Shown: positions 25,451 to 35,440 of the stretch, piece by piece
Layout: every line of letters begins with the position of its first letter
Position numbering within the stretch: the first letter of the stretch is position 1
NCBI RefSeq assembly: GCF_014202435.1
Contig: NZ_JACHGU010000002.1
Location: forward strand, 496,001-560,000
DNA from: Pseudoxanthomonas broegbernensis
Lineage (GTDB): Bacteria; Pseudomonadota; Gammaproteobacteria; Xanthomonadales; Xanthomonadaceae
Reading direction: 5' to 3'
DNA length: 64,000 nt
The notes under the pieces: generated by a model
The model's input: the letters and a program-made list of their open reading frames with translations, nothing else
Told to the model about the DNA's origin: nothing
Databases searched by the model: none
Translations under genes and position numbers: made by a program

Positions 25451-28282
25451 TTACTCGGCGACGATCTGGTTGCCGGGCGGGTTGACCAGCGCGTCGGCGA
25501 CCAGTTGCAACTGCTCCTCGACGTGGTCGGCGAAATGGCCGACGGCCGGGGAGGGCGAGCGGCTGCGGCCGGCGTAGCTCAGGGCCTGGCCCTTGGCCAG
25601 GCAGGCCTGCAGGTGGTGCTTGATCTGGTACCACGCGCCCTGGTTCTGCGGCTCTTCCTGGCACCAGACCACCTCGGCGGCCTTGGCGTAGGTCTGCAGC
25701 ACGGTGGCCAGCGCCTCGCGCGGGAACGGATAGAGCTGCTCGATGCGGACGAGGGCCACGTTGTCCTGGCCGCGCTTGCGCGCGTCCTCCAGCAGGTCGT
25801 AGTAGACCTTGCCCGAGCACAGCACCACGCGCTCGACCTTCTTCGGGTCGGCGGCGGTGTCCGGGATCAGGTGCTGGAACTCGCCGTCGGCCAGCTCGTC
25901 CAGAGTCGACACGGCCAGCTTGTGGCGCAGCAGCGACTTCGGGCTCATCACCACCAGCGGCTTGCGGGTGCCCATCTTCATCTGCCGGCGCAGCATGTGG
26001 AAGCACTGCGCCGGGGTGGTGGGCACGCAGACCAGCATGTTCTCCAGCGCGCACAACTGCAGGAAGCGCTCCAGGCGCGCGGAGCTGTGCTCGGGCCCCT
26101 GGCCCTCGTAGCCGTGCGGCAGCAGCAGGGTCAGCCCGGAGATGCGGCCCCACTTGGCCTCGCCGGAGGCGATGAACTGGTCGATCACCACCTGGGCGCC
26201 GTTGGCGAAGTCGCCGAACTGGCCTTCCCAGATGTCCAGGGTGTTGGGGTCGGTGGTGGAGAAGCCGTACTCGAACGCCATCACCGCCTCCTCGCTGAGC
26301 AGCGAGTCGATCACGGTGGCCTGCTCGGGGCTTTCGACCAGTTGGCGCAGCGGCAGGTAGTAGCTGTCGGTCTTCTGGTCGTGGAGGATGGCGTGGCGAT
26401 GGAAGAAGGTGCCGCGGCCGGCGTCCTGGCCCACCAGGCGCAGGCCGTGGCCCTCGGACAGCAGGGTGGCGTACGCCAGGTTCTCGGCGAAGCCCCAGTC
26501 GCCGGGGATGTCGCCGGCGGTCATCTTCATCCGGTCTTCGTAGATCTTGGCCACGCGCGGATGCAGCGTCACGCCCTGCGGGACGGTGTTGATGATCTTG
26601 GCCAACTGGGCGAGCGTGGCCTTCTTGACCCGGGTGTCGACCGCGTCCGAAAGCGTGCCCGACAGGTACCTGGACCAGTCGATCGACAGCTCGTAGTCCT
26701 CCGGCTTGGAGCCGGCCAGCTCGGTGGTGACCTCGCCGGCGTCGAGCTTGTCGCGATAGGCGTCGACCAGGGCCTTGCCCTCGTCGGCGGCGATCACGCC
26801 GGCCTTTTCCAGGCGCGCGGCGTACATCTCGCGCGTGGTCGGATGCTTGCGGATGGTCTGGTACATGATCGGCTGGGTCGCCGCCGGCTCGTCGGCCTCG
26901 TTGTGGCCGTGGCGGCGGTAGCAGACCAGGTCGATGACCACGTCCTTCTTGAATTCCTGGCGGAACTCGTAGGCCAGCCTGGCCACGAACGCGACCGCTT
27001 CCGGGTCGTCGCCGTTCACGTGGAACACCGGTGCGCCGACCATCTTGGCCACGTCGGTGCAGTACAGGGTGGAGCGGGCGTCGTCGCGGGCGCTGATGGT
27101 GAAGCCGATCTGGTTGTTGACCACCACGTGCACGGTGCCGCCGACGGCGAAGCCGCGCGCCTGCGACATCTGGAACAGCTCCATCACCACGCCCTGGCCG
27201 GCGAAGGCGGCGTCGCCGTGGATCAGGATCGGCAGGACCTGCTTGCGCTCGACGTCGCCGCGGCGCTCCTGGCGCGAACGCACCGAGCCGGCGACCACCG
27301 GGTCGACGATCTCCAGGTGCGAGGGGTTGAAGGCCAGGGCCAGGTGCACCGGCGCGCCGGGGGTGGCGATGTCGGCGGAGAAGCCCATGTGGTACTTCAC
27401 GTCGCCGGCATGGGCCAGGGCGTCGTGCTCGAACTTGCCCTCGAACTCGTCGAACAGCTTGCGCGGGTTCTTGCCCAGGGTGTTGACCAGCACGTTGAGG
27501 CGGCCGCGATGGGCCATGCCGATCACGATGTCCTTGACCCGGTCCATGCCGGACTGGCGGATCACCGTGTCCAGCAGCGGGATCAGCGAGTCGCCGCCTT
27601 CCAGCGAGAAGCGCTTCTGGCCGACGTACTTGGTGTGCAGGTAGCGCTCCAGGCCCTCGGCGGCGGTCAGCCGCTCGAGCACGCGCTTGCGGGTCTCGGC
27701 GCTCAGGCCGTAGTCGCCGCCGGCCGCTTCCAGGCGCTGGTACAGCCATTGGCGCTGCTCGACCTCGGAGATGTGCATGAACTCGGCGCCGATGGGGCCG
27801 GTGTAGGTCGCCTTGAGCCGGGCGAGCAGGTCGCGCAGCTTCATCCGCGGCTGGCCGGCCAGGCCGCCGGTGCTGAACTCGCTGTCCAGGTCGCGCTCGG
27901 ACAGGTCGTGATAGGACAGGCCCAGGTCCGGCGGGTTCATCGGCGGGGTCAGGGCGAGCGGGTCGACCTGGGCGCCGAGGTGGCCGCGGGAGCGGTAGGC
28001 GGTGATCAGGCGGCCGACGTTGCGTTCGCGCTCGTCGCCGGCGCCGGTAGCGACGGCATGGCCGTTGTTGGCGGCTTCCCGCGCGGCCTGGGCCACGTGG
28101 GCGATGACCGCCGAATGCGGGACATCGCCCGCTTCGCGGCCCTGGAACCCGTCGAAGTAGGACTTCCACTTCGGATCGACGCTGTCGGGGGAGACCAGGT
28201 ACTGCTCGTACAGGTCCTCGATGTAGGCGGCATTGCTGCCGAGTTGCGAAGACTGCGCAAACTGCTTGATTGAGTTGTCCAC
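25451..28282 (-). CDS. sucA: 2-oxoglutarate dehydrogenase E1 component
   Basis: Thiamine-diphosphate enzyme that decarboxylates 2-oxoglutarate. 943 residues. An N-terminal helix binding E2 ([24 protein letters not shown]), then [12 protein letters not shown]-like [30 protein letters not shown], the TPP site [14 protein letters not shown] and the second half with [22 protein letters not shown] chose GTG at 28282 because homologues begin [15 protein letters not shown]; the ATG at 28318 would add 12 Pro-rich residues. It starts an operon with sucB and lpdA. Confidence 0.95.
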
Positions 28283-28756
28283 AATGAGGTCGGGTCTGGG
28301 TGGAGGGTGGGCCTGCATGGCCCGGCCCCGCGGAGCGGGCTCGACAGCTCCAAAAAGTATAACCCTCAATACCGGGTGGAAGGGCTTGGCCGAAGGGTGA
28401 AAAAGCCCAAACCGGGCCCTGCGTCATGGCTTGGTTCACACTCGCGCGCAGAAGCCTCCGGGCGCGCAAGCATTCGTCGAGGATTCGTCGGGAAAAGGTC
28501 GGCGATGACAGCTCCATGACATGTACGGCGTGTATGCGCATCCGCCATCGGCGCGGTCCACGCGATCGGCCTTGCATGCTGCGCCACAGGAGGCGTCGGT
28601 CCATGCGCGGCCCGGAAAGCATCCCGGCTCCTGCGCGCGCAGGTTCGTGCGAGGAGCGGGCGGCGGCGCTGCGCACGGAACGCCGCGGGCGGCTTCGCGC
28701 GGGCATGGCGAGGCCGGAAATGGGACGGACCGTGCCGCCTGCCGCATCGGCTTCGC
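28283..28756. other. Intergenic stretch upstream of sucA
   Basis: 474 bases between the sucA start and the end of the GNAT gene. It holds the sucA promoter region. An open frame of 112 codons at 28426-28764 on the plus strand is Arg-rich and looks spurious. No RNA gene or mobile sequence is recognisable. Confidence 0.5.
28356..28361 (-). promoter_or_regulatory. Candidate -10 box of sucA
   Basis: TATACT on the minus strand, 73 bases before the GTG start of sucA, within an AT-rich island (GGGTTATACTTTTTGG). The -35 is weak. Confidence 0.5.
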
Positions 28757-29656
28757 TCAGGTGAGGGCGCGGTATTCGATGCAGGGGCGCGAGCGTTCCC
28801 AGGCGCGGCCGAATTCCCGCTGCAAGCGCCGCGCCTGCACCGGAACCCGGAGGCCGCCCTCGCCGCCGAAGCGGTCGCCCAGCGGGCGGAAGCACATGCC
28901 GCCGGTATCGTTGAAGGCATGTGCGGACGGATAGCCGGCATCGACCGGGTCCTGGACCTGGCGGAAGGCGAACACGCTGGGCAGGCGCTGGGCCAGGGCC
29001 AGCAGCGGCGCGTCGTCGCGCTGGGGCGTGGCGGCGTCCTGCAGCAGGAGGCGCACGCGCCGCTCGCCGGAGCGGATGGCGAAGCGGCGCAGCGCGTCGA
29101 TCACGTCCGTGCGGTCGAGCAGGCCCGGGTCCAGGCGCCGGCTGTAGATCCCCAGTTCGCGCCGGGCGCTGGCGGCCAGCGCCAGCAGCAGCGCGGCCGC
29201 GCCGTCGGCATCGGCGAAGGGAGTGGGGCCGTCCAGGCGGCAGCGCATCTGGCGATGGCCGATGCCGGCCTCCTCGAAGCCCGGGCCGAAGGGCACGAAT
29301 CCCGCACGGGCATAGAAGGGCAATGCATGGCACTGCGCGTGCAGCGACACCTCCGGCCAGCCGCGGCGGCGGGCCTCTTCCACCAATGCATCCAGCAGCG
29401 CGCGGCCGATGCCGCGGCCACGGGCGGAGGCGAGCACGGCCATGCGCCCGATCCGGCGCTCGGGCGTCAGCCGGGCGGTTCCCAGCACCCGGCCGTCCGG
29501 GGCCAGGGCGAGCACGTGGTGGCTCGACGGGTCCAGCGCATCGCGTTCCAGCTCCGGCGGGACCCGTTGCTCGCGCACGAAGACGTCCTCGCGCAGCGCG
29601 TGCAGCCGCGCATGGTCTCGGGCGTAGTCGGCCGCCGCGACGGCGATGCCGGTCAC
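28757..29656 (-). CDS. GNAT acetyltransferase fused to a C-terminal DUF7931-like domain
   Basis: 299 residues in two halves. Residues 1-140 are a GNAT domain: REDVFVREQRVPPELERDALDPSSHHV, acetyl-CoA loop VLASARGRGIGRALLDAL, and HAQCHALPFYARAGFVP, all typical of the ElaA/YjcF-like branch. Residues 150-299 form a second domain with ELGIYSRRLDPGLLDRTDVIDALRRFAIRS, seen fused to GNATs in this family (known as an uncharacterised domain). GTG start at 29656 overlaps the stop of the upstream oxygenase gene. Its acetyl acceptor is unknown. Confidence 0.82.
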   Translation of the reverse strand: MTGIAVAAADYARDHARLHALREDVFVREQRVPPELERDALDPSSHHVLALAPDGRVLGTARLTPERRIGRMAVLASARGRGIGRALLDALVEEARRRGWPEVSLHAQCHALPFYARAGFVPFGPGFEEAGIGHRQMRCRLDGPTPFADADGAAALLLALAASARRELGIYSRRLDPGLLDRTDVIDALRRFAIRSGERRVRLLLQDAATPQRDDAPLLALAQRLPSVFAFRQVQDPVDAGYPSAHAFNDTGGMCFRPLGDRFGGEGGLRVPVQARRLQREFGRAWERSRPCIEYRALT

Positions 29657-30888
29657 ACCGGTGCGTCCGCGTCCGGGTCGTGGCCCTGCAGGGCGTAGTG
29701 CCCGGACTGGTGCAGGGCGAGCACGGCGTCGCGTCCCTTCGGCGACAGGGCCGACCAGGCCGCCGCATCAATGCGCGATGCGGCGGCGATGCGGCGCGCA
29801 TCGGCCACCGCCAGGCCCAGCGTGCGGCCGCTGCAGAACAGGCTGGCGCCGCGGCGATTGCGCCGCCAGGCCATCCGCGACCACGGATGGCGCTGCAGCG
29901 CCGCGCCATGGGCCAGCAGTTCCTCCACGCCCTCGCGTGGCAGCTCCGCGCCGGAAGGCATGACCTCGCCGGCGGCGCGGTAGGTGGTGATGAAGCGGCC
30001 GAACCAGTCGCCCAGGCGGTCCGGGTCGTCCATGCGGATCGCGTTGAGCGCCTCGACCACGCGGCCCATGGCCGCCGCGTCGATTTCCCCCGGGTCGGCC
30101 GGCAGGGCCAGGTCCTCGTCGTGGTAGCGGACGGACTCGTCGGCGTCGATCAACACCTCGTCCAGCCAGTCGCCGATGAGTTCGGCCGAGGACGGCGCGC
30201 GCGTGCCCACCGAGAAGGTCAGGCACGGTTCCTCGGCCACGCCGTGGTGCGGGACCAGCGGCGGCAGGTAGAGCATGTCGCCCGGGCCCAGCACCCAGTC
30301 GTGGGTGGGCCGGAAGCGGCGCAGCAGCTTGATCGCCACGTCCTCGCGGAAGGACAGGTCCGGCGCCTTGCGGCCCATCGCCGCGCTGGCGTCGATCTGC
30401 CAGCGGCGGTGGCCCAGGGCCTGCAGCAGGAACACGTCGTAGTGGTCCACGTGCGCGCCGACCGAGCCGCCGGTGGCGGCGAAGCTGACCATCACGTCGT
30501 CGATGCGCCAGCGCGGAAGGAAGCGGAAGTGATCCAGCACCGCGGCCACGTCCGGGTCCCACTTGTCCACGTCCTGCACCAGCAGGGTCCAGTCGCGGTC
30601 GGGCAGGCCGGGGAAATCCTCTTCCTGGAAGGGGCCGGTGCGCACGTCCCAGCTTCCTTCGGCGCGATCGTGGGCGACCAGCCGCGCCAGGGCGCCTTCC
30701 TCGCAGGCCAGGCCGGCCAGGTCTTCGGGCATGACCGGGGTCTGGAAGCCGGGGAAGGCGTTGCGGATCAGCAACGGCCGTTTGTGCCAGTAGTGGCGCA
30801 GGAACCGCTGCGGCGGCATGCCCAGCGGCTGCCCGCCGGTGGCCTGGATCTCGAATGGCAGGGCAGCGGCTCTCGGCGTCTTCTTCAT
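29653..30888 (-). CDS. RoxA/YcfD-type ribosomal protein arginine hydroxylase
   Basis: JmjC/cupin 2-oxoglutarate and Fe(II) oxygenase. 411 residues. Visible: FLRHYWHKRPLLIRNAFPGF at the N-terminus, metal ligands H146 and D148 in VGAHVDHYDVF and H214 in LVPHHGVAEE, then a C-terminal winged-helix and dimerisation region. E. coli YcfD hydroxylates Arg81 of ribosomal protein L16 and its gene also lies near purB, which supports the call. ATG at 30888. The last codon overlaps the GNAT gene start. Confidence 0.88.
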   Translation of the reverse strand: MKKTPRAAALPFEIQATGGQPLGMPPQRFLRHYWHKRPLLIRNAFPGFQTPVMPEDLAGLACEEGALARLVAHDRAEGSWDVRTGPFQEEDFPGLPDRDWTLLVQDVDKWDPDVAAVLDHFRFLPRWRIDDVMVSFAATGGSVGAHVDHYDVFLLQALGHRRWQIDASAAMGRKAPDLSFREDVAIKLLRRFRPTHDWVLGPGDMLYLPPLVPHHGVAEEPCLTFSVGTRAPSSAELIGDWLDEVLIDADESVRYHDEDLALPADPGEIDAAAMGRVVEALNAIRMDDPDRLGDWFGRFITTYRAAGEVMPSGAELPREGVEELLAHGAALQRHPWSRMAWRRNRRGASLFCSGRTLGLAVADARRIAAASRIDAAAWSALSPKGRDAVLALHQSGHYALQGHDPDADAPV

Positions 30889-31028: not shown

Positions 31029-31937
31029 CTAGCGCGGCGGCGCGGCGGCTTCTTCCTCGGCCAAGCGCCGGTCCAGGCGGGCGCGGGCCTTGTCCGCGTA
31101 CGCCCGGCAGGCGCCCGGTGCGGCCAGCGGCTGGTCCGCGTCCGTGCCGATACGCGACAGCAGGCCGCTGGCGGACGGGTGCGGGGTGATCAGGATGTCG
31201 CAAGGCAGGGCGGCGACCGTGTCCAGGCTGCGGCGAAACGCGGCCAGGTAGCCCGGGTGCGCTTCTTCGTCGCCGAAGCGCCAGTCGTCGTCGGAGATCG
31301 CGGTCAGGCTGTCGGCGTAGGCGATGTCCAGGCATTCCCGCCCCTCGCAGGAGCGCCAGGTCCAACTGGTGCTGCCGAGGGTATGCCCGGGCGTGGCGTG
31401 GGCGGTCAGGCGCAGCGGTCCCAGTTCCAGCACCTGGCCGTCGGCGATCGGACGGACCTCGCCGGGCAGCGGCGCGAACGCCTCCAGCACGCCGTACTGT
31501 GGATCGTCGCGGCCGCTGCGGCCGCGGCGCAGCACCTCGGCCGCCGGGGCGCGGGCCACCACGGTGGCGCCGCTGGCCTGCTGCAGCGCGGCGATGCCGC
31601 CGGCGTGGTCGAAATGCTCGTGGGAGCCGGCGATGTAGCGCACGTCGCGCAGGTCGAAGCCCAGGGCGCGGATGTTGGCCTCGATCAGCGCCGCGCCCTG
31701 GGCGGTGCCGCCGTCGAGCAGGACGTGGCCTTCGGGCGAGGCCAGCAGCAGCGCGGTGATGCCGCAGGTGCCCACGTACCAGGTGTCGCCGTGGATGTGG
31801 TGCGGAGCCGAGGGCGTGTCCCAGCCGGCGTCGGCCGGGCAGCGCGCCGGCAGCGGCGCGGCGGGGGCCGCATGCGCGCCGCCGGCCGTGGCGGCCAGGA
31901 GCAGCAGGCCGAGGGGCGGGGCACGGAAGGCGGGCAT
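31029..31937 (-). CDS. Putative subclass B3 metallo-beta-lactamase, exported
   Basis: 302 residues with a signal peptide (1-23, cut near AHA). The zinc site is complete and of B3 type: H106-x-H108-x-D110-H111 in [12 protein letters not shown]185 in [13 protein letters not shown], and H253 in [13 protein letters not shown]210 in YADSL stands where B1 enzymes have a cysteine. [32 protein letters not shown] is typical of the N-terminal half of B3 enzymes. It should hydrolyse beta-lactams in the periplasm, but chromosomal B3-like proteins can have weak activity. AGGA precedes the ATG at 31937. It lies between purB and roxA without co-regulated ampR. Confidence 0.87.
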
Positions 31938-31969
31938 GCGGGAATCCTGGAAAGCGGGCGTGGGCCGGA

Positions 31970-32230: not shown

Positions 32231-33913
<1,683 letters not shown>

Positions 33914-35440
33914 ATGAGCAAGACCCCCCCCCGTTCCCGCGCCCAGGCGCCGGCGGCCCGCAGGCCCCGCAATCCCCGCGCGACCGCCGCGGCCGCCGCG
34001 GCCGACGCCTCCACCGTGCGCACCCGTACCGAACGCGACAGCATGGGCGAGCTGCAGGTCCCGGCCGATGCCCTGTGGGGCGCGCAGACCCAGCGCGCGG
34101 TGCAGAACTTCCCCGTCTCGGGGCGGCCGATGCCGCGCGGCTTCATCCGTGCGCTGGGCCTGGTCAAGGCCGCCGCGGCCGAGGTCAACGCCGGCCTGGG
34201 CCTGCTGCCCAAGGGCGTGGCCGCCGCGGTGCGCGCCGCGGCGCTGGACGTGGCCGCGGGCCGGTACGACGCCCACTTCCCGGTCGACATCTACCAGACC
34301 GGCTCGGGCACTTCGTCGAACATGAACGCCAACGAGGTGATCGCCGCGCTGGCGACGCGCCGGCGGGAGGGGGCCTCCGGCAGGGCGGACAAGGGCAAGG
34401 TGCACCCGAACGACCACGTCAACCTGGGCCAGAGTTCCAACGACGTGGTGCCCACCGCGATCCGGGTCTCGGCGCAACTGGCGGTGGTCGAGGACCTGCT
34501 GCCGGCGCTCAAGCACCTGCGCCGTACCATCCGCCGCCGCGGCCGCGAGCTGCGCCGGGTGGTCAAGACCGGCCGTACCCACCTGATGGACGCGATGCCG
34601 CTGACCTTCGAGCAGGAGTTCGGTGCCTGGGCCTCGCAGTTGGAATCGGCCGAGGCGCGCATCGAGGATGCGCTCAAGCGCCTGCGCCGCCTGCCACTGG
34701 GCGGTACGGCCATCGGCAGCGGGATCAATGCCGACCCACGCTTCGGCCCGAAGGCGGCCAAGGCGATCTCGGCGCTGGCCGGCACCCGGTTCGAGAGCGC
34801 CGACGACAAGTTCGAGGGCCTGGCCGCGCAGGACGACGCGGTCGAATTGTCCGGCCAGCTCAACGCGCTGGCGGTGGCCCTGATCAAGATCGCCAATGAC
34901 CTGCGCTGGATGAACGCCGGGCCGTTGGCCGGGCTGGGCGAGATCGAGCTGCCGGCATTGCAGCCGGGCAGTTCGATCATGCCCGGCAAGGTCAACCCGG
35001 TGATCCCGGAGGCGACGGTCATGGCCGCCGCGCAGGTGATCGGCCATCACACCGCCATTACCGTGGCCGGGCAGACCGGCAACTTCCAGCTCAACGTGAC
35101 CCTGCCGCTGATCGCGGCCAACCTGCTGGAGTCGATCCAACTGCTGTCGAACGTCTCGCGGCTGCTGGCCGATTCGAGCATCGCCGGGCTGAAGGTGCGC
35201 GGCGAGCGGGTGAAGGAGGCGCTGGAACGCAACCCGATCCTGGTCACCGCGCTGAACCCGGTGATCGGCTACGAGAAGGGCGCGGCCATCGCCAAGCGCG
35301 CCTACAAGGAAGGGCGGCCGGTGCTGGAGGTGGCGATGGAAGTCACCGGCCTGCCGGAGAAGACGCTCGGGCCGCTGCTGGACCCGGCGCTGCTGGCGCG
35401 GGGCGGCATCCACGGCAAGCCCGGCGGCGGAGGCGGCTGA
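33914..35440 (+). CDS. fumC: Class II fumarate hydratase
   Basis: Oxygen-stable, iron-free fumarase of the TCA cycle. 508 residues, about 40 more than E. coli FumC because of an Ala/Pro/Arg-rich N-terminal extension (1-42). Motifs: DSMGELQVPADALWGAQTQRA, TGSGTSSNMNANEV, HPNDHVNLGQSSNDVVPTA, TGRTHLMDAMPLTFEQE and the signature GSSIMPGKVNPVIPE. ATG at 33914 after GGAG. Codons 4-6 contain a run of nine C (33924-33932). A GTG at 34016 would remove most of the extension but lacks a ribosome site. Confidence 0.94.
   Translation: MSKTPPRSRAQAPAARRPRNPRATAAAAAADASTVRTRTERDSMGELQVPADALWGAQTQRAVQNFPVSGRPMPRGFIRALGLVKAAAAEVNAGLGLLPKGVAAAVRAAALDVAAGRYDAHFPVDIYQTGSGTSSNMNANEVIAALATRRREGASGRADKGKVHPNDHVNLGQSSNDVVPTAIRVSAQLAVVEDLLPALKHLRRTIRRRGRELRRVVKTGRTHLMDAMPLTFEQEFGAWASQLESAEARIEDALKRLRRLPLGGTAIGSGINADPRFGPKAAKAISALAGTRFESADDKFEGLAAQDDAVELSGQLNALAVALIKIANDLRWMNAGPLAGLGEIELPALQPGSSIMPGKVNPVIPEATVMAAAQVIGHHTAITVAGQTGNFQLNVTLPLIAANLLESIQLLSNVSRLLADSSIAGLKVRGERVKEALERNPILVTALNPVIGYEKGAAIAKRAYKEGRPVLEVAMEVTGLPEKTLGPLLDPALLARGGIHGKPGGGGG

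Follow-up and report, generated by a model that had tools for sequence, protein, structure and literature searches.

The Adelaide imipenemase, AIM-1, is a hospital enzyme from Pseudomonas aeruginosa (PDB 4awy) that destroys carbapenems and whose gene is borne by ISCR15. AIM-1 has been described as a highly efficient carbapenemase with two zinc ions, in which three histidines coordinate Zn1, D120, H121 and H263 coordinate Zn2, and a bridging hydroxide is the nucleophile (PMC10318434). Pseudoxanthomonas mexicana has been proposed as the origin of blaAIM-1, and no mobile elements surround the gene in that species (Amsalu et al. 2021, PMC8767344). A further metallo-beta-lactamase (MBL) of the genus, PJM-1 of Pseudoxanthomonas japonensis, was described by Yamada (2022), as cited in PMC10740994. 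The subject of this analysis is a gene, bla, found in a 64,000-nucleotide stretch of the Pseudoxanthomonas broegbernensis genome (contig NZ_JACHGU010000002.1, positions 496,001 to 560,000; hereafter the window, in whose coordinates features are given). We consider it very probable (about 95%) that bla encodes a chromosomal, exported di-zinc MBL of subclass B3, homologous to the P. mexicana source of AIM-1 and lying in the same conserved block. The protein is an unnamed addition to a known enzyme family, from a genus in which such enzymes had been described before.

31029..31937, minus strand: bla, subclass B3 metallo-beta-lactamase of AIM/PJM type, 302 aa

A reading made from the letters of the window alone (the sequence-only reading) had proposed a subclass B3 MBL, to be checked against curated beta-lactamase collections and to be given up if its closest characterised relatives were lactonases or other MBL-fold hydrolases. 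The proposal held on each of these points: the protein scored 312.8 bits against the NCBIfam subclass B3 equivalog bla_subclass_B3 (NF033105), which has a cut-off of 240 bits, and among characterised proteins the carbapenemases AIM-1 and PJM-1 are closest to it. The highest NCBIfam subfamily scores were 355 bits for PJM and 352 bits (351.7) for AIM. In a sequence search of the PDB, AIM-1 crystal chains ranked first (E 1.5e-101), whereas true lactonases and PqsE-type hydrolases matched marginally (E about 1e-4). Assignment to the lactonases or to other MBL hydrolases was rejected on the profile scores together with the PDB ranking. An AlphaFold model, built from an alignment of 41 homologues, reached a mean predicted local distance difference test score (pLDDT) of 92.4 and superposed on the AIM-1 crystal structure with Z 42.8 and a root-mean-square deviation of 1.0 Å over 267 aligned residues. 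Chains of B3 and B3-like proteins occupied ranks 1-42 of the structure search, with a sharp fall in Z, from 31 to 20, between B3 and other MBL folds. The protein is thus predicted, as modelled, to adopt the alpha-beta/beta-alpha MBL fold of the B3 type.

Among named enzymes, AIM-1, which was entered in the homologue alignment as its PDB chain sequence, is 58.7% identical to the bla protein, and the P. japonensis DSM 17109 protein (L024), assumed to be of the PJM-1 type, is about 57% identical; PJM-1 shares both genus and locus with the bla of the window. The canonical HHH/DHH B3 enzymes SMB-1, LMB-1, MIM-1 and Rm3 are further off than AIM-1, at about 47-51% identity. L1 of Stenotrophomonas maltophilia has bacterial family, subclass and active site in common with the bla protein, but in the structural alignment (Z 34, 2.2 Å) only about 42% of residues are identical, and the NCBIfam L1 model gave 207 bits against 355 for PJM. 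Homologues from named genomes assign the window to Pseudoxanthomonas, the nearest being that of P. jiangsuensis, with 89% identity over the best segment and 86% over the full length.

The active-site residues named in the sequence-only reading (H106, H108, D110, H111, H185, H253 and the B3-type serine S210) all lie at the positions given and align with the zinc ligands and Ser221 of AIM-1, and the contexts HEHFDHAGG and DILITPHP that it quoted are present in the protein. Their codons, with standard class B beta-lactamase (BBL) numbers, are as follows.

31605..31622, minus strand: HEHFDH, residues 106-111 (BBL 116/118/120/121); H106 and H108 for Zn1, D110 and H111 for Zn2
31383..31385, minus strand: H185 (BBL 196), Zn1 ligand by alignment with AIM-1
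31308..31310, minus strand: S210 (BBL 221), by alignment with AIM-1
31179..31181, minus strand: H253 (BBL 263), Zn2 ligand by alignment with AIM-1

The protein therefore carries the ligand set that defines subclass B3 (H116 or Q/E, H118 and H196; D120, H121 and H263, BBL). AIM-1 is likewise a B3 enzyme with all zinc ligands, Ser221 and Gln157, the last being a substrate residue whose equivalent in the homologue alignment is Q147 of the bla protein. The first alignment showed the zinc ligands, Ser221 and Q147 conserved in all its homologues, and across the 41 homologues their equivalents were invariant or at least 90% conserved, S210 being invariant where B1 and B2 enzymes have the ligand Cys221.

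The open reading frame runs from ATG to stop, encodes 302 aa and lies on the minus strand, which the sequence-only reading had left unstated.

31938..31952, minus strand: ribosome-binding region, AGGA 8 nt before the ATG, read directly from the sequence
31869..31937, minus strand: predicted signal peptide, residues 1-23, from hydropathy and low pLDDT; cleavage probably near AHA-AP

The G+C content at the three codon positions is 77/58/93%, and comparison with the P. jiangsuensis gene gave 21/24/65 nucleotide differences by codon position, with nonsynonymous and synonymous rates (NG86) of dN 0.080 and dS 0.296, a dN/dS well below 1. The bias of both composition and differences towards the third position, and the low dN/dS, identify bla as a translated and constrained gene instead of a chance reading frame, and show that purifying selection acts on it. 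As had been proposed, the N-terminus is signal-like: it is hydrophobic, with a likely AHA cleavage motif and a hydropathy peak at residues 9-21, and residues 1-30 of the model have low pLDDT. Export through Sec would yield a mature enzyme of about 279 aa, in which the six cysteines (33, 58, 197, 202, 246 and 277) are likely paired as disulphides, as in AIM-1. By analogy with that enzyme, H106, H108 and H185 would bind Zn1 and D110, H111 and H253 would bind Zn2, and a bridging hydroxide would attack the beta-lactam carbonyl, leading to periplasmic hydrolysis of penicillins, cephalosporins and carbapenems. Such hydrolysis may defend the cell against beta-lactams encountered in soil or water, and we infer that the protein is a candidate reservoir carbapenemase.

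The gene lies in a conserved housekeeping neighbourhood, in line with the earlier description of it as chromosomal, in the order fumC(divergent)-purB-bla-roxA-GNAT/DUF7931-sucA.

33914..35440, plus strand: fumC, class II fumarase, divergent edge of the block
32231..33598, minus strand: purB, adenylosuccinate lyase (Pfam Lyase_1, ASL_C), upstream neighbour
29653..30888, minus strand: roxA-type ribosomal oxygenase (JmjC_2 and ROXA-like wH), downstream neighbour
28757..29656, minus strand: GNAT acetyltransferase with DUF7931
25451..28369, minus strand: sucA, 2-oxoglutarate dehydrogenase E1

Seventeen Pseudoxanthomonas genomes were searched for bla, and nine contain it intact. In all nine it lies within the purB-roxA interval, with purB adjacent or one gene away, and the same holds for its placement in this interval in P. 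mexicana, P. japonensis, P. sacheonensis and P. wuyuanensis and, outside the genus, in Luteimonas, Thermomonas and several lysobacterial metagenome-assembled genomes (MAGs). In the DNA examined, no such neighbours accompanied the homologues from Stenotrophomonas, Novosphingobium and Nitrospirillum. Over the region compared, the P. mexicana protein encoded in the interval (L027) matches AIM-1 at 97.6% of residues, in agreement with the published origin of blaAIM-1. A VOC/glyoxalase-like gene of 132 aa (family judged by eye) also occupies the interval, for example at L151:2180-2575, with equivalents in L147, L148, L150, L155-L157, L027 and others. It stands between purB and bla, upstream of the latter, in the mexicana/Luteimonas group and in genome G010, and between bla and roxA, downstream, in P. 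kaohsiungensis, P. daejeonensis and G011, all of the clade to which the enzyme of the window belongs. In the window this VOC gene was not found and bla adjoins purB, whereas in P. mexicana the VOC gene separates the two.

Three other explanations were weighed. A B3-like hydrolase might act mainly on a substrate other than a beta-lactam, such as an acyl-homoserine lactone, with beta-lactamase activity secondary. Precedent exists in the bifunctional marine enzymes reported by Selleck et al. (2020). The MIM family model, taken here to cover these marine enzymes, gave the protein 280 bits and MIM-1 matched its fold with Z 40.0; however, the far higher AIM and PJM scores, the marginal lactonase and PqsE-type matches and the conserved counterpart of Gln157 make this explanation very unlikely. 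That the gene is decayed, or encodes an inactive or non-lactamase relative of the HARLDQ/B3-RQK kind, is extremely improbable: the HARLDQ not-B3 model does match and gene loss occurs in the genus, but the match (156 bits) is far under the cut-off of 350, the motif is HEHFDH in place of HARLDQ within a canonical HHH/DHH site, and the reading frame is intact and constrained.

A recently acquired mobile resistance gene, as opposed to a resident chromosomal one, could account for the patchy distribution within the genus and for the places where the bla tree departs from that of purB and roxA; the two trees have only 5 of 24 splits in common and a distance correlation of 0.50, a partial agreement, and strict vertical descent of bla is not claimed because each was built from no more than two genes. 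Against acquisition stand the single interval shared by every carrier in the genus and by other genera, and a third-position G+C content of 0.93, close to the 0.90-0.95 of the neighbours. Furthermore, no record in the plasmid collection covered 80% of the protein (best LMB-1, 49%), and when plasmids were searched for distant DNA matches to the locus no record contained most of it, the named matches being to purB; repeats near bla gave only weak, GC-rich matches. Absence in relatives is also explained at least once by loss: in genome G014, whose assembly is only 57% complete, a C-terminal piece of bla, about 65 codons long, is still present and is flanked by purB and the VOC gene (L153, G014:C1:1455351-1455536), which is evidence of loss in place. 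This is the sole remnant accepted; the six other non-carriers yielded short, weak matches only, several around a TGCGATATCCTG block equally readable as promoter. Unlike the ISCR15-borne blaAIM-1, the bla of the window is chromosomal and without ISCR15; we saw no sign of mobility in this copy, and recent acquisition is disfavoured as highly improbable.

Several results weigh against a resident B3 enzyme of AIM/PJM type. The protein is not an AIM or PJM allele, since it scores under both allele-family cut-offs (351.7 against 675 bits for AIM, NF000439; 355 against 630 for PJM, NF040874). The gene is dispensable, for six of the 17 genomes (G003, G005, G008, G009, G012 and G015) have purB and roxA without it; G001, in which purB was not found, was left out of these calls. 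Also, a consensus promoter scan found no sigma-70 consensus promoter for bla, and no AmpR/LysR-type regulator adjoins it.

With a resident B3 enzyme as the preferred reading, the environmental carbapenemase pool would gain an unnamed AIM-type member. In several genera, the progenitor of blaAIM-1 and its relatives occupy a single conserved place in the chromosome, which makes it possible to carry out surveillance by synteny. The picture of B3 enzymes is unchanged, the Pseudoxanthomonas origin of AIM-1 being already published; what the comparison adds is that the block around the gene is syntenic across the family. The enzyme of the window falls in a separate clade (support 0.99) with those of P. 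jiangsuensis, P. koreensis, P. daejeonensis, P. kaohsiungensis, G011 and one MAG. It is possible, although we regard the proposal as doubtful, that AIM-type B3 enzymes have long had a chromosomal home in the purB-roxA interval across Lysobacteraceae, and that this lineage forms a deep second branch there, with a substrate profile that may be its own. A local rearrangement or a separate entry into the interval would then explain why its bla and that of the AIM/PJM branch lie on opposite sides of the VOC gene.

A search of the window for transfer RNA genes found none. In the six genomes without bla (purB-roxA intervals L147-L152), a common block like CTTGACCNTGCNCAAGG, followed by TGCG(A/C)TATCCTG or a near variant, lies just after purB and may represent a promoter with a dyad operator; the window lacks a block of this kind. 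The bla of G016 (L161) is at the purB-roxA locus, yet its place in the tree is among Stenotrophomonas and lysobacterial sequences, which suggests an allele replacement or an assembly problem. Additionally, G010 encodes a second B3-like protein elsewhere in its genome (L134, G010:C10:320927-321757), 43% identical to that of the window.
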